Shown here: positions 2,709 to 52,094 of the stretch, piece by piece
How positions within the stretch are numbered: position 1 is the first letter of the stretch
Layout: the number at the start of each line of letters is the position of its first letter
Origin: Candidatus Venteria ishoeyi
GTDB lineage: Bacteria > Pseudomonadota > Gammaproteobacteria > Beggiatoales > Beggiatoaceae
Direction: 5' to 3'
DNA: 64,000 nucleotides
Assembly: GCF_030378065.1 (NCBI RefSeq)
Contig: NZ_JAUCGJ010000023.1
Span: 1-64,000, forward strand
Position numbers and translations under genes: made by a program
The notes under the pieces: model-generated
The model's database searches: none
What the model was told of the DNA's origin: nothing
What the model saw: only the letters and a program-made list of their open reading frames with translations

Positions 2709-2868
2709 AGGAGTGAGAATTTTATAACTTCAGCAACTTGGCTGGTCTTTTTCTCCATTTTCTGCGTTGTGAAAACAGTTACATAGCTTGCTATGCGCCT
2801 GTTTTCATGCCTTGAAAATGAATAAAAATCCTGCGCCCAGTTTCTGTATTTATTTCATCCTCACTCCT
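2709..2868 (+). repeat. 160-bp foldback element, family A, copy 1
   Basis: Begins AGGAGTGAG and ends CTCACTCCT, exact complements. Inside, most of the left half can pair with the right half. The core is GCGTTG, then GAAAACAG, then a CATAGCTTGCTATG hairpin, then CTGTTTTC and CCTTG. The element ends 4 nt from the stop codon of the minus-strand ABC exporter at 2873. Other copies are at 22352, 33779, 33940 and, diverged, 11385; a partial copy is at 51850. Confidence 0.9.
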
Positions 2869-11384: not shown

Positions 11385-11543
11385 AGGTAACTCACAAGAA
11401 ATAACACCCCCGTAGCGCGCAGGATTTTTATCTGTTTTCAAGGCGTGAAAACCGGCGCATAGTGAGCTATGTAACGGTTTTTACAACGCGGAAAACGGGT
11501 AAAAAGACCAGCGAAATGGAGGGGTATTCGCTGCGAGTTACCT
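11385..11543 (-). repeat. 159-bp foldback element, family A, diverged copy in reverse orientation
   Basis: The ends AGGTAACTC and GAGTTACCT are exact complements but differ from the AGGAGTGAG ends of the other copies, so both arms changed together. Read on the minus strand, the core keeps GCTGGTCTTTTT, GCGTTGT, TTACATAGCT, CTATGCGCC, CACGCCTTGAAAA and ATAAAAATCCTGCGC. In the central stem an A-T pair has become C-G (AACAG/CTGTT to AACCG/CGGTT), and in the next stem A-T has become G-C. The element ends 20 nt before sbcB. Confidence 0.85.
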
Positions 11544-21464: not shown

Positions 21465-22352
21465 TTGAGCACTTCCCAACAACCCATTTTTTATCAATCC
21501 CGTAGTAACGAAACCCATGAAGCCATCGTCACCACTGGCATGGACAGCCCAGCATTACGTTTTTACGCCTTTGCTTCTGATCAGGTGCTTAACGCCCTGG
21601 AACCGCTACGTGGCAAAAAACTATTAGATATTGCAGCAGGCACGGGACATATGGCGATAAGTGCCATTCAATCGGTTAAACCTGATGGGCGCGTGCATGT
21701 GGTTGAGCAAGATGCCGCACACCTGGACATACTGTTTGAAAAGCAGCAGCAACTCGGGATTGAAGGCATTGATATCCATGAAATGGATCTCACCAGTCTG
21801 GATTTTCGCAGCGCGTATTTTGATGTGGCGATTTGTATTTATGGAGTGGGACAACTGCCAGAACCGCAGGCTGCGATTAATGACTGGGTACGGGTCTTGA
21901 AACCCGGTGGCAAATTAGTACTTGCCTGCTTTGCTGAAACGGCTTTTCAACCGCTGCTGGAAAAATTATTCATACAACTGGAAACCGCAGCAGAAACGCT
22001 ACAGCCACCTGCAAAGGCACAATTGACAGCGCAATTGACAAAACATCGGCAAGACCTGCAACTATTCAGTGATAGCAATACCATACAAACATGGTTGCAA
22101 CAGGCAGGACTTGATGATGTTGCCGTACATAGTCGCCCTTTAGGTTATCATTTAACACAGGTTCAGGACTGGTGGGAAATCATTGCTGCCAGCCCCTGGC
22201 AGGCTTTGATTGATAATTTACCTGCATCGGTGCAGTCCAATTTAATTGCCAGACACAGTGAAGAAATTTCAGCATTAGGTCAATCCAGCGACGATGGAGA
22301 AAGTTTCTGGCTCAATGCCTCTACCCATTTTATTGGTGGCACTAAAAACTAA
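21465..22352 (+). CDS. Class I SAM-dependent methyltransferase
   Basis: 295 residues with the SAM motif LLDIAAGTGHMA (about 45-56), the acidic ribose contact VEQD, and the post-motifs DVAICIYGVGQL and VLKPGGKLVLA. It is of the UbiE/methyltransf_11 type; the substrate is unknown. The frame begins with a TTG immediately after the TerD stop and has no clear ribosome site, so the real start may lie slightly downstream (ATG in TGMDSPALRF). The last base of its stop codon is the first base of foldback copy 2. Confidence 0.75.
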   Translation: MSTSQQPIFYQSRSNETHEAIVTTGMDSPALRFYAFASDQVLNALEPLRGKKLLDIAAGTGHMAISAIQSVKPDGRVHVVEQDAAHLDILFEKQQQLGIEGIDIHEMDLTSLDFRSAYFDVAICIYGVGQLPEPQAAINDWVRVLKPGGKLVLACFAETAFQPLLEKLFIQLETAAETLQPPAKAQLTAQLTKHRQDLQLFSDSNTIQTWLQQAGLDDVAVHSRPLGYHLTQVQDWWEIIAASPWQALIDNLPASVQSNLIARHSEEISALGQSSDDGESFWLNASTHFIGGTKN

Positions 22353-22511
22353 GGAGCGAGAATTTTATAACTTCAGAAACTTGGCTGGTCTTTTTCTCCA
22401 TTTTCTGCGTTGTGAAAACAGTTGCATAGCTTGCTATGCGCCTGTTTTCACGCCTTGAAAATGAATAAAAATCCTGCGCCCAGTTCCTGCACTTATTTCA
22501 TCCTCACTCCT
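22352..22511 (+). repeat. 160-bp foldback element, family A, copy 2
   Basis: Starts AGGAGCGAG on the final A of the methyltransferase TAA and ends CTCACTCCT. The central hairpin here is perfect (GCATAGC, TT, GCTATGC). The remaining body is nearly the same as copy 1. Confidence 0.9.
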
Positions 22512-22576: not shown

Positions 22577-22945
22577 ATGAAAACAGTCTATTTAGGCGCT
22601 TTATTTTTTATGCTATCTGTTACTATGCCACTTTCTGCCCAGGCAGGTTGCTTACCCGCACTACCCAGCCTGGGATTAAATGCCAATCTCGGCCTGAGTT
22701 TGCCGACACTTCCAAGTTTAGGCTTAAATGCCAATCTCGGCCTGAGTTTGCCCGCACTCCCAAGTTTAGGCTTAAATGCCAATCTCGGCCTGGGTTTGCC
22801 CGCACTCCCAAGTTTAGGCTTAAATGCCAGCGCCAGTTTAGGGCTGCCCACGTTACCCAGTTTAGGCTTAAGTGCCAATGCAAATCTGGGTCTGAGCTTA
22901 CCCGCTTTACCCAGTTTGGGCTTAAGTGCCAATATTGGTTGTTGA
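22577..22945 (+). CDS. Small secreted protein built of six 16-residue repeats
   Basis: 122 residues. A signal peptide ends near AQAGC (residue 25). The rest is six units of LPxLPSLGLNANLGLS: four of 16 residues, one of 18 and a last one of 15 ending in Cys 122. The two Cys, at 25 and 122, bracket the array. The composition is almost only Leu, Gly, Pro, Ser, Asn and Ala, suggesting a fibrous or surface-coating protein. AGGAG lies 9 nt before the ATG. The other frames are also open through the array because the 48-bp DNA unit is a multiple of three. I know no named family. Confidence 0.7.
   Translation: MKTVYLGALFFMLSVTMPLSAQAGCLPALPSLGLNANLGLSLPTLPSLGLNANLGLSLPALPSLGLNANLGLGLPALPSLGLNASASLGLPTLPSLGLSANANLGLSLPALPSLGLSANIGC
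22652..22942 (+). repeat. Tandem 48-bp coding repeats (six units)
   Basis: Units of 48 bp, one enlarged to 54 bp, code for the LPxLPSLG repeats. Units 2 to 4 are nearly identical in DNA (GGCTTAAATGCCAATCTCGG recurs), so the array has been homogenised or expanded recently; units 5 and 6 have diverged. Confidence 0.85.
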
Positions 22946-33778: not shown

Positions 33779-33938
33779 AGGAGTGAGAATTTTATAACTT
33801 CAGCAACCTGGCTGGTCTTTTTCTCCATTTTCTGCGTTGTGAAAACAGTTACATAGCTTGCTATGCGCCTGTTTTCACGCCTTGAAAATGAATAAAAATC
33901 CTGCACCCAGTTTCTGTATTTATTTTATCCTCACTCCT
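33779..33938 (+). repeat. 160-bp foldback element, family A, copy 3
   Basis: Starts AGGAGTGAG, ends CTCACTCCT. It is directly repeated 1 nt downstream by copy 4. It lies 21 nt upstream of the minus-strand ADP-ribosylglycohydrolase start. Confidence 0.9.
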
Positions 33939-33939
33939 A

Positions 33940-34099
33940 AGGAGCGAGAATTTTATAACTTCAGCAACCTGGCTGGTCTTTTTCTCCATTTTCTGCGTTG
34001 CGAAAACAGTTACATAGCTTGCTATGCGCCTGTTTTCACGCCTTGAAAATGAATAAAAATCCTGCACCCAGTTTCTGTATTTATTTTATCCTCACTCCT
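33940..34099 (+). repeat. 160-bp foldback element, family A, copy 4 (tandem)
   Basis: Differs from copy 3 at two positions only, both T to C in the left half (AGGAGCGAG and GTTGC), so the pair is a recent duplication. Both changes break a pair with A on the right side. Confidence 0.9.
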
Positions 34100-34338
34100 A
34101 AGAGATTTTAGAATCATTTTTTCTCCACACCTCTGTGCCTCTGCGGGAGGTATAAAAAATTACCAAGTCGTGTATACAGCCTTATATTCCAGTATACTGA
34201 ATAAACGCTGTTCACAAGGCCTGTTTTTCACTTATTTTTTTAGACTATTTAGCCCGGTTTCCATGTCCCGATTTATCAATGCTGGTGGAGCCTGGATAGC
34301 AAGTAAGAAACAAACAATACGCAACAACCGGATTTTCC
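34100..34338 (+). other. Leader region of mfd
   Basis: 239 bases with no supported gene. The notable point is two GTATAC hexamers about 14 nt apart near 34170-34200 within an AT-rich stretch that could carry the mfd promoter. No strong hairpin or repeat is seen here. Confidence 0.4.
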
Positions 34339-39708: not shown

Positions 39709-40150
39709 CAGGTGCCTCACCTGAAAATGACTAACATCAGGCATCTCGCCTGATTTTTAAATTATATCTCGTAATGAGATAATGAGATAACATCAACTTT
39801 AAAAGACTAAACAACCACCCGCTAAAAGACGGGTGGATTAGAGCATTTGGCGGCTGAAAGCCGAGATACAGGGCGGACAAGCCCTGTTGTTTAGCCCCAA
39901 CGGGGCGCATTAATATAGCCAGGGGTAACACCCCTGGAATTGTATCCGTGCCATTCACGCCCTGAAAGGGCAAATTAAAATATTGCAATCATTTTAACCT
40001 GCCCTTTCAGGGCGTAAACGTGTCATTCTCTACCTTGGGGCGTTGCCCCAAGCTATATTAAAATACCCCTTTGGGGTGTTAGTGCTAAAACCCATATTTT
40101 AAGTTTTACCGTTAAACATCAGAGATAAATCTGTTCGCCTGAAAGGCGAA
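39709..40150. repeat. Cluster of at least ten short hairpins
   Basis: In 440 bases without a gene I see, among others, ATCAGGC/GCCTGAT, CCACCCG/CGGGTGG, ACAGGGC/GCCCTGT, GCCCC/GGGGC, CCAGGGGT/ACCCCTGG, CGCCCT/AGGGC, GCCCT/AGGGC, CTTGGGGC/GCCCCAAG, ACCCCT/GGGGT and TTCGCCT/AGGCGAA. Each stem is 5-8 bp with a 2-8-nt loop. The first has a following TTTTAAA and could end transcripts. The nature is unknown; REP/MITE-type clustering is the nearest analogy. Confidence 0.7.
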
Positions 40151-40180
40151 GGTTTTAACCTTGTGCATGGAAAATAAAAA
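40121..40180 (+). repeat. 60-bp dispersed repeat, copy 1
   Basis: From AGAGATAAATCTG to CATGGAAAATAAAAA. The reverse complement, with four differences, occurs at 51891-51949. It includes the ATG at 40167 that lies in frame with the following ABC gene, which is why I prefer the ATG at 40182. Confidence 0.8.
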
Positions 40181-49968: not shown

Positions 49969-51845
49969 TTGCATTTCAAGAACTTTCCCTGCAACGCGGT
50001 TATAAACCCTTACTTCAGGATGTTAATTTACGCATTTATCCGGGCTGGAAAGTCGGTATTACCGGTGCAAACGGCAGCGGTAAATCCTCTGTGTTCAGTT
50101 TATTACTGGGTGAATTACAAGCCGACAGCGGTAACTTGCAGCTACCATCAAACTGGGTGATTGCCCATGTTGCACAGGAAACCCCGGCCTTGGAACGCTC
50201 AGCGCTGGATTATGTCCTGGATGGTGATGTTGAACTGCGGGATCTGGAAAAACAACTGGCACAGGCAACGCAAACAGATGATGGTATGAAAAGCGCGCAA
50301 TTGCATGAGCAGTTGGCGCATATTGATGCCTATAGCGCCCATGCTCGCGCCGGACGTTTATTGCATGGCCTGGGGTTTAGCGAAGCGCAACATCAACATG
50401 CCGTGAAACAATTTTCTGGCGGCTGGCGGATGCGCCTGAATCTGGCGCGGGCCTTGATGTGTCGTTCGGATTTATTATTGCTGGATGAGCCAACCAACCA
50501 CCTGGATTTGGATGCCTTATTGTGGTTTGAACAATGGCTGAAAAACTATCGTGGAACCTTATTGCTGATTTCTCATGATCGGGATTTTCTGGATAATACC
50601 GTGGATCAGATTGCCTGGTTGCATCAATTAAACATACACTTGTATGCCGGTAATTACAGTGCTTTTGAACGCCAGCGCGGTGAACAGTTATTACAACAGC
50701 AGGCCGCTTTTGACAAACAGCAACGCCAGAAAGCGCATTTACAACAATTTATCGACCGCTTTCGCGCCAAAGCCACCAAAGCCAAGCAAGCACAAAGCCG
50801 TATTAAAGCCCTGGAAAAAATGGAAACCATCCAGGCCGCGCATATAGACTCACCTTTTGGGTTTCAATTTAAACCCCCGGAAACCTGCCCAAATCCTTTA
50901 TTTACACTGGAACAAGCCGATGCGGGTTATGGTGATGAACCGATCTTAAAAAATCTGAATCTGCGGATGCCTCCCGGTGCCCGTATCGGTTTATTAGGTG
51001 CAAATGGTGCGGGTAAGTCCACTTTCATCCAGTTATTAGCCGGTGATTTAGCCCCCATGCAGGGCAAACTGGAAGCCCACTCAGGGCTGAAAATTGGTTA
51101 TTTTGCCCAGCACCAACTGGAACACCTGCATTTGCAATCCACACCGCTGGAACACTTACAGCGTCTGGATAAACAGGCCACAGAACAACAACTGCGGGAT
51201 TTTCTGGGTGGCTTTGGTTTTCCTGGTGATCGCGCCACGGAAATCGTGGCACCGTTTTCCGGCGGTGAAAAAGCGCGCCTGGCATTAGCCTTATTAGTCT
51301 GGCAAAAACCCAATTTATTATTATTGGATGAGCCGACCAATCACCTGGATTTGGAAATGCGTCATGCTTTAGGCGTGGCGCTACAGGCATACGCTGGCGC
51401 TTTGTTGATTATCTCCCATGATCGCCACTTGCTGAAAATTACCACTGATCAACTCTATCTGGTGGCGAATCAAAAACTGGAAATCTTTGATGGCGATCTG
51501 GATGATTATCGGCAATGGTTATTACAGGAAAGCCGCCAGCAAAACCAGGCGAATACAACAGCAAACCCGCAGGCGCAGGACAAGCAAACGCGGGTAAAAC
51601 AAAACAAGCAACTCAGGGCGCAGCGTAAGCAACTGGAAAATCAGGTTAAAAAGCTGGAACGGGAAATTGAAAAACTTACCATAGAAAAAGAAAAGCTGGA
51701 AAATACACTGGCTGACCCGGCGCTGTACGAGGATCGGGAAAAAGCGCAAAAATATGCCGATAAACGGGAACACATCAGTGTGGAACTGGAAGCACTGGAA
51801 GAAACCTGGCTGGAAATACACGACCAGTTAGAAACGCTGGAATAA
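49965..51845 (+). CDS. yheS: ABC-F family ATPase YheS
   Basis: 626 residues, two ABC domains and no membrane part. First Walker A GANGSGKSS, signature FSGGWRMR, Walker B LLLLDEPTNHLDLD; second Walker A GANGAGKST, signature FSGGEKAR, Walker B as the first. The linker between them (FRAKATKAKQAQSRIKALEKM) and a C-terminal coiled coil fit E. coli YheS (637). ABC-F proteins act on the ribosome E site. A foldback repeat starts 4 nt after its stop. Confidence 0.92.
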   Translation: MIAFQELSLQRGYKPLLQDVNLRIYPGWKVGITGANGSGKSSVFSLLLGELQADSGNLQLPSNWVIAHVAQETPALERSALDYVLDGDVELRDLEKQLAQATQTDDGMKSAQLHEQLAHIDAYSAHARAGRLLHGLGFSEAQHQHAVKQFSGGWRMRLNLARALMCRSDLLLLDEPTNHLDLDALLWFEQWLKNYRGTLLLISHDRDFLDNTVDQIAWLHQLNIHLYAGNYSAFERQRGEQLLQQQAAFDKQQRQKAHLQQFIDRFRAKATKAKQAQSRIKALEKMETIQAAHIDSPFGFQFKPPETCPNPLFTLEQADAGYGDEPILKNLNLRMPPGARIGLLGANGAGKSTFIQLLAGDLAPMQGKLEAHSGLKIGYFAQHQLEHLHLQSTPLEHLQRLDKQATEQQLRDFLGGFGFPGDRATEIVAPFSGGEKARLALALLVWQKPNLLLLDEPTNHLDLEMRHALGVALQAYAGALLIISHDRHLLKITTDQLYLVANQKLEIFDGDLDDYRQWLLQESRQQNQANTTANPQAQDKQTRVKQNKQLRAQRKQLENQVKKLEREIEKLTIEKEKLENTLADPALYEDREKAQKYADKREHISVELEALEETWLEIHDQLETLE

Positions 51846-51849
51846 GGTA

Positions 51850-51890
51850 AGGAGTGAGGATGAAATAAGTGCAGGAACCGGGCGCAGGAT
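51850..51890 (-). repeat. Partial foldback element, family A
   Basis: AGGAGTGAGGATGAAATAAGTGC to GGCGCAGGAT matches the right end of family A in reverse orientation. The rest is missing and the next 60 bases match a different repeat, so this is a junction of two elements. It starts 4 nt after the yheS stop. Confidence 0.75.
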
Positions 51891-51949
51891 TTTTATTTTC
51901 CATGCACAAGATTAAAATCCTCACCTTTCAGGCGAACAGATTTATCTCT
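51891..51949 (-). repeat. 60-bp dispersed repeat, copy 2
   Basis: Reverse complement of 40121-40180 with four differences. The palindrome AAGGTTTTAACCTT in the first copy is kept as a stem with a G-U pair in the second. Confidence 0.8.
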
Positions 51950-52094
51950 AATCAAAAACTAAATCCTCCAAAAACTCAGAACCCGGTTCCAAAGCGGTGA
52001 TCAACAAATGCTCACGGGCGCGGGTGCAAGCCACATATAACAAATGGCGTATGGAAGTGTCCCCTTTAATTCCTTTAATTAGCGAATAGGATTC
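51948..52094 (-). pseudogene. C-terminal remnant of a UvrD-like (superfamily 1) helicase
   Basis: A 48-codon minus-strand frame with no start encodes RHLLYVACTRAREHLLITAL and then EPGSEFLEDLVFD before a stop. The VACTRARxHLLIT run is helicase motif VI of UvrD/Rep-type enzymes, and PGSEFLEDL is a common C-terminus of that group. Upstream is an in-frame stop and then the hsdR promoter region, so the helicase was cut when the restriction operon or a repeat was placed here. Confidence 0.75.

Follow-up and report, generated by a model that had tools for sequence, protein, structure and literature searches.

Within the window, that is, the whole 64,000-nucleotide stretch from Candidatus Venteria ishoeyi that was analysed here, a foldback of about 160 bp recurs at several places, which raises the question whether it is a structured RNA or a mobile hairpin, and why its two arms still pair. 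The first-pass annotation had listed five copies, and all five are present where it placed them. Each is a near-palindrome of ~158 bp, so that the foldback does extend over nearly the full length, and the copies at 22352, 33779 and 33940, described as nearly the same, showed 95.6-97.5% identity to 2709-2868. The places were right, while the target duplication puts the ends one base further in. After the flanks of many copies had been read, the ends were set at GG...CC, giving 158 bp for subfamily A and 157 bp for the window copy of subfamily B. The copy at 11385-11543 represents this second subfamily and lies on the other strand, with 94-99 bp matching the others at 86-87%. A core inverted between subfamilies A and B was considered and rejected, since B simply lies on the other strand. 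The elements are listed below, the strand of each copy being the one with the best fold.

2710..2867, minus strand: subfamily A element of 158 bp, flanked by ATA and TTA, an imperfect duplication
11386..11542, plus strand: subfamily B element of 157 bp with ends GGTAACTC, flanked by TTA on both sides
22353..22510, minus strand: subfamily A element, flanked by TAA on both sides
33780..33937, minus strand: subfamily A element, first of a head-to-tail pair, with TAA at its left
33938..33940, no strand: single TAA common to both tandem copies
33941..34098, minus strand: subfamily A element, second of the pair, with TAA at its right (34099-34101)
51850..51897, plus strand: half element consisting of one subfamily A arm, joined to a sequence repeated inverted at 40118-40180

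That the tandem copies at 33780-34098 have one TAA in common is expected if one copy inserted into the target duplication of the other. The half element (within 51843-51952) is joined to a 63-bp sequence, the inverted repeat of which lies 11.7 kb off. Other repeats were also seen: an 82-bp repeat in four overlapping copies with a spacing of 48 bp at 22652-22877, and further short palindromic repeats of unrelated sequence at 39900-40090 and, elsewhere in the same genome, at L215:12882-12912.

The exact hairpin tip occurs 206 times in the 4.4-Mb genome (105 + 101; control 0), and a search with the 2709 copy returned at least 41 full-length matches at 96-100% identity with 40 of the 338 candidates scored. 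In a sample of 839,655 bp from the same genome, 62 copies had no more than two changes in the tip. With genes predicted by a simple ORF caller, 61 of these were intergenic, and tandem, divergent and convergent gene pairs were hit about as often as they occur. A fixed operon partner was considered and rejected, because the gene families recurring within 8 kb in at least four loci were, on visual inspection, apparently housekeeping genes or the element itself. Identical 3-bp flanks in a fixed register bordered 61 of 69 own-genome copies (TTA 29, TAA 28, ATA 3, TGA 1), compared with a mean of 27.9 and a maximum of 38 when flanks were re-paired in 200 trials. The corresponding value of 82/104 in the 104-element set is biased, as the choice of ends there carried a bonus for equal flanks. 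The base before the element was C in 46/69 copies and the base after it was G in 40/69, hence the favoured target is CTWAG. Shorter derivatives (44-88 bp) that keep these ends but lack the tip were found both in this genome and in another tip-bearing genome, G039. The elements are mobile elements, MITEs in kind: they are short, multicopy and intergenic, with terminal inverted repeats and a target-site duplication. Thus the mobile hairpin, one of the two readings offered in the first-pass annotation, has the target duplications, the terminal repeats and the copy number in its favour. A search for an empty site in a relative revealed none, the right flank of the element not being conserved. The exact tip was present in 0/36 other genomes of the same family and in 29/29 genomes from other groups selected by the tip, with 1-98 exact tips each, counts which give no estimate of frequency because the genomes were picked by the tip. 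This patchiness is as for a transferred mobile element. A phage origin was rejected, with 0 viral contigs carrying the exact tip; one Clostridia copy compared with phages by blastn gave no match.

What probably moves these elements is suggested by their ends. About 30 bp at each end of the element are ISAzo13-type terminal repeats, in a GGAnnGnnnnnnAAATAACTT or a TTTTATAA variant. When G039 was searched with the ends, pairs 158 bp apart were obtained, and in one further pair the ends lay 1.32 kb from each other and enclosed an ISAzo13 transposase of 406 aa. The same end type was recovered at six of nine ISAzo13 loci (L292, L293, L242, L243, L244 and L245), while L294, L246 and L251 gave no usable ends. 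All five proteins tested matched the NF033519 ISAzo13 profile at 1e-131 to 1e-157. The flanks of the IS were TAA/TTA in five of six readable loci, those of L243 coming from the second-ranked alignment only, and AAA in L245; as the end listing was restricted to equal-flank pairs, these duplications are not independent evidence. For the L292 element of G039, the TAA flanks are plain from a separate reading. Over 22 end positions, L292 matched the elements of its own genome at 21, L242, from a relative of the window genome, matched the Methylococcaceae element L083 at 20, and L242 matched subfamily A at 18, each with 0/500 shuffles reaching the same value when GGA was held fixed. With the element that matched best, the IS ends agreed at 17-21 of 22 bp. 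Some IS ends barely beat the shuffles against the window-genome ends (L245a 15/22, 31/500; L292a 16/22, 7/500). An autonomous partner with the same ends was found in G039 (L292); for the window genome a candidate partner was seen in a relative of the same family only (L242). Because the ends resemble those of intact insertion sequences of the ISAzo13 family, the elements are most probably MITEs mobilised by ISAzo13.

PF07592 (ISAzo13) was not found in the assembly of the window genome, and we therefore infer the movement by ISAzo13 in this genome. The family was above the cut-off in 8/29 tip-bearing genomes compared with 9/37 genomes in the family of the window genome, hence no association was observed. 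With ISAzo13 not found in the own assembly and not above the cut-off in 21/29 tip genomes, the presence of the gene does not follow the element. In the nine ISAzo13-bearing genomes of the family (loci L242-L253 and others) many copies of the gene are broken, and the exact tip was found in none of these nine. The end classes GAGCGTGTTTGAAAA, GAAGCTG and ACTTCGCGCGG were matched by no IS.

It might be argued that the own-genome elements were moved not by ISAzo13 but by an IS5-like (DDE_Tnp_1) transposase which has since decayed. A DDE_Tnp_1 remnant does adjoin TTA-GGAGTGAGAA in the window genome (L221), and IS5 groups with 3-bp TNA duplications exist. However, the similarity at L221 covers ~10 bp, and the inner part (TTTTATAA or GAAATAA) by which the ISAzo13 ends resemble the elements is missing there, and we consider an IS5-like mover very improbable. 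A DUF4096 transposase was also considered and rejected, PF13340 not being found in G000.

While the terminal repeats and the 3-bp TWA duplication are those of an ISAzo13-derived MITE, an interior derived from the IS was not found among eight ISAzo13 loci. The IS itself measures about 1.3 kb and carries a transposase gene. By eye, the similarity to the IS elements extends over ~30 bp and ends where the core starts, and the comparison of the core with these eight loci gave no significant match (best E 0.085). Judged from these alignments, the inner ~95 bp is not IS-derived.

The core was then considered as a fold. In each subfamily the plus strand folded better than any of 200 shuffled sequences (z -6.0 and -7.8). 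Once the 11385 copy had been oriented, the two changes that were claimed for it could be read as two-sided, A-T to C-G beside the tip and A-T to G-C in the next helix, and its different ends do pair. An alignment of 16 sequences contained 43 pairs, of which 33 showed two-sided changes. In the core alignment of 28 sequences from several phyla (29 representatives minus L076), 96.2% of the cells were paired compared with 80.2% in shuffles, two-sided changes occurred in 18/29 pairs compared with 11.5, and the two-sided cells numbered 118 compared with 33.4 (0/500 shuffles). When the partner was slid by 1-3 columns, the paired cells collapsed to 42-50%. Shuffles and partner sliding, rather than R-scape, served as the controls for covariation; the shuffles disregard relatedness, and the slide control retains it. 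Hence the covariation between copies holds, and the covarying pairs stay above both controls when more copies are aligned; the lack of such pairs, which the first-pass annotation had named as refuting its claim, was not observed. Counts of "compensated" changes, when used as a test, gave a combined p of 0.26. The plan of the core is a loop GCAGGA/GACAAG, a covarying helix, a loop GNG/TNA and a tip hairpin of 5-6 bp. As the helices alter by two-sided substitution while the loops stay, the folded form seems to be kept.

A fold of this kind could be selected because the element is, or encodes, a structured RNA, its mobility being incidental. One strand does fold better as RNA in 102/104 elements (minus at 2710, plus at 11386), and when the pairs of the two strands' consensus folds are pooled, G-U pairs outnumber A-C mismatches on the better strand, 114 to 61. 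However, the 40 pairs common to both strand folds contain 1032 Watson-Crick, 29 G-U, 26 A-C and 62 other cells, that is, nearly equal numbers of G-U and A-C. The 10 pairs formed on the better strand only contain 78 G-U and 4 A-C, and the five pairs formed on the other strand only contain 7 G-U and 31 A-C, counted on the better strand. The advantage of the better strand thus comes from certain columns, which include two wobble pairs retained in 22/28 and 26/28 sequences. Within the 67 family A copies, variants occurring in at least four copies comprised seven G-U and one A-C, compared with 10 and 9 for the rarer variants (p 0.19). Eight tRNAs gave 11 G-U and 0 A-C, a weak control since the tRNA pairs came from ARAGORN itself. 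The folding strand ran along the tandem genes in 21 cases and against them in 16, showing no bias. No recurring neighbour gene linkable to the element was found within 8 kb, and no Rfam family reached its gathering score in the window or in eight loci, the matches by E-value being mainly sub-threshold microRNA hairpins. The structured RNA proposed earlier is therefore not well supported, and we regard it as improbable. On our reading the pairing is maintained chiefly in the DNA, perhaps on one strand, with which an RNA is compatible.

A second explanation for the covariation is mutational. By template switching in the hairpin, known as quasi-palindrome correction, the sequence of one arm would be copied into its partner, and selection on folding would not be needed. 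The equal G-U and A-C counts fit such a DNA-level process. The two arms of L122:7659-7828 are perfectly complementary for 23 bases in the mid region, a pattern expected from such correction, and in G039 seven of the 12 pair types present in at least three copies are two-sided. In family A of the own genome, on the other hand, just 1/10 common variants is two-sided. Moreover, arm-to-arm copying would erase the mismatched loops GCAGGA/GACAAG and GNG/TNA as well as the two wobble pairs, but all of these persist over several phyla. We hold this explanation to be rather unlikely, though deserving of some weight. A folded form, either of one DNA strand or as a cruciform, seems to be kept in the transposing lineages.

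Hairpins with the same tip (GGCG-CATAG..CTATG-TAAC) were found in Clostridia, Bacteroidota, Methylococcaceae and SAR324. When GTDB species genomes were scanned for GTTACATAGCNNNCTATGCGCC, at least 102 stretches were obtained; the 80 titles among the listed matches include Lachnospiraceae, other Clostridia, Bacteroidaceae, Methylococcaceae, SAR324 and others. Many of the matches read formed the end of a long hairpin about as large as the elements here, with one arm disrupted in some. The tip was also surveyed by other baits. Among 63 own elements selected by the arm only, with arm baits taken from tip-bearing elements, 52 carried the exact tip, eight had one change, one had two and two were rearranged (L191, L211). 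Among 30 G039 elements selected by the terminal repeats only, all from pairs formed within the first 100 of the 115 end hits, 25 carried the exact tip, three had one change and two had another tip. With the covariance model, Blautia (L102), SAR324 (L120, L130) and a record of Lachnospiraceae (L129) were found to carry other tips on this frame, and L086 a further tip on another end class; in all of these the stem was altered on both sides and the loop was different. The tip is thus conserved within lineages and replaceable between them, and tips look exchangeable between lineages.

Several rearranged copies were noted in the course of this survey. At L289:5963-6062 the halves of two end classes are, by eye, joined at the tip hairpin. 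Five Clostridia copies (L077, L088, L093, L117, L134) have small palindromes inserted into one arm, and five copies of the Methylococcaceae type (L062, L094, L106, L141, L145; L094 a variant) carry a nested hairpin such as CCTACATGGATGTAGG in the left arm beside the tip.

Taken as a whole, the elements are probably a foreign hairpin core set between ISAzo13-type ends and moved in trans by an ISAzo13 transposase. In this mechanism, a DDE transposase of the ISAzo13 family would act in trans and cut at GG/CC, and insertion would take place at CTWAG-like targets with duplication of TWA. The ends are of the ISAzo13 type, with the foreign core of ~95 bp between them. The core may raise transposition, for example by presenting to a host or element protein a hairpin that forms in single-stranded DNA at replication forks; this role is our guess. 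The suggestion that the transposase reads structure is not demonstrated, in that the likely transposase, ISAzo13, can be identified from the linear ends alone.

Among known hairpin elements, copies of ERIC from nine records and of Correia from one were compared. ERIC (RU-1), a MITE of enterobacteria and Vibrio, is likewise a single long hairpin, and its motifs GCAGGA, AAGGCG, the GNG/TNA loop and AACGC follow in the same order as here. The ERIC copy of a Salmonella plasmid (L331) reads GGAG-CATAG-nnnn-CTATG-TGAC where the elements here read GGCG-CATAG-nnnn-CTATG-TAAC, differing only in the terminal loop and in two internal-loop positions. In 7/9 ERIC copies the tip loop reads GGAGC..GTGAC, which would fit GNG/TNA closed by G-C and C-G. 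The core covariance model gave E values of 0.005 for L331, 0.013 for L329 and 0.17-0.28 for five other ERIC copies, and no match to L327, L328 or Correia. With a structure-free profile L331 was the only copy to score, at 4.7 bits (reached by 0/300 shuffles of L331), but shuffled versions of other copies gave up to 8.0 bits. Similarity over the ~127-bp ERIC unit was not found, and subfamily A matched nothing by blastn in the plasmid collection, although 339 records there match an ERIC copy. The available text of PMC2229807 gives ERIC as about 127 bp with ends TATACCC and TA at its termini, in contrast to the GG..CC ends and the 3-bp TWA here. The motif order and tip are suggestive of homology with ERIC, which is not proven.

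The Correia (NEMIS) element of Neisseria is a 156-bp hairpin MITE like those described here. Its copy L332 contains CAGGACAAGGCG and GGCAACGC in the same order, but it differs in its ends and tip. YPAL (RU-2) of Yersinia, a MITE of ~168 bp, is likewise palindromic, with target duplications of 3-26 bp and internal repeats in the available text of PMC2229807. In the present material its CCTACATGGATGTA turned up solely in some relatives, as a nested insert; the nested hairpin of the Methylococcaceae-type copies has the same core as YPAL in Table 1b of PMC2759123. The word ISAzo13 is absent from the available part of the review PMC10969869, and among the papers listed in open-access searches none describes the hairpin family in its title or the start of its abstract.

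REP elements and REPINs, with their RAYT, are imperfect hairpins with a conserved loop in hundreds of copies, features which the elements here share. Unlike the REP/RAYT system, the present elements have target duplications. Y1_Tnp was detected in 37/46 genomes searched and was not found in the tip-bearing genomes G037 (98 exact tips), G038, G046, G059, G063 and G064; RAYT was therefore rejected as the universal partner.

The elements are thus ordinary in kind, being MITEs, and unusual in three ways: their transposase family is unreported for such hairpins in the literature searched, their core is conserved as a fold over several phyla, and their exchangeable-looking tips look close to the ERIC tip. 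As a tentative proposal, which we think more doubtful than probable, mobile DNA hairpins may form a single superfamily that spans several bacterial phyla and has ERIC and perhaps Correia among its members; its tip would be an exchangeable module (GNG/TNA loop types and others) that joins the terminal repeats of different ISs and is read as folded DNA by a widespread protein. Strain typing has long made use of ERIC and similar repeats, for which neither a transposase nor a reason for the hairpin was found in the literature searched. In the present case, several phyla contain hairpins built on a similar plan, a transposase family can be identified for the ends, and the fold-conserved core does not come from the IS. 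With the transposase family and this core, two long-standing questions become open to testing: by what such elements are moved, and whether the folded DNA tip is part of the signal.
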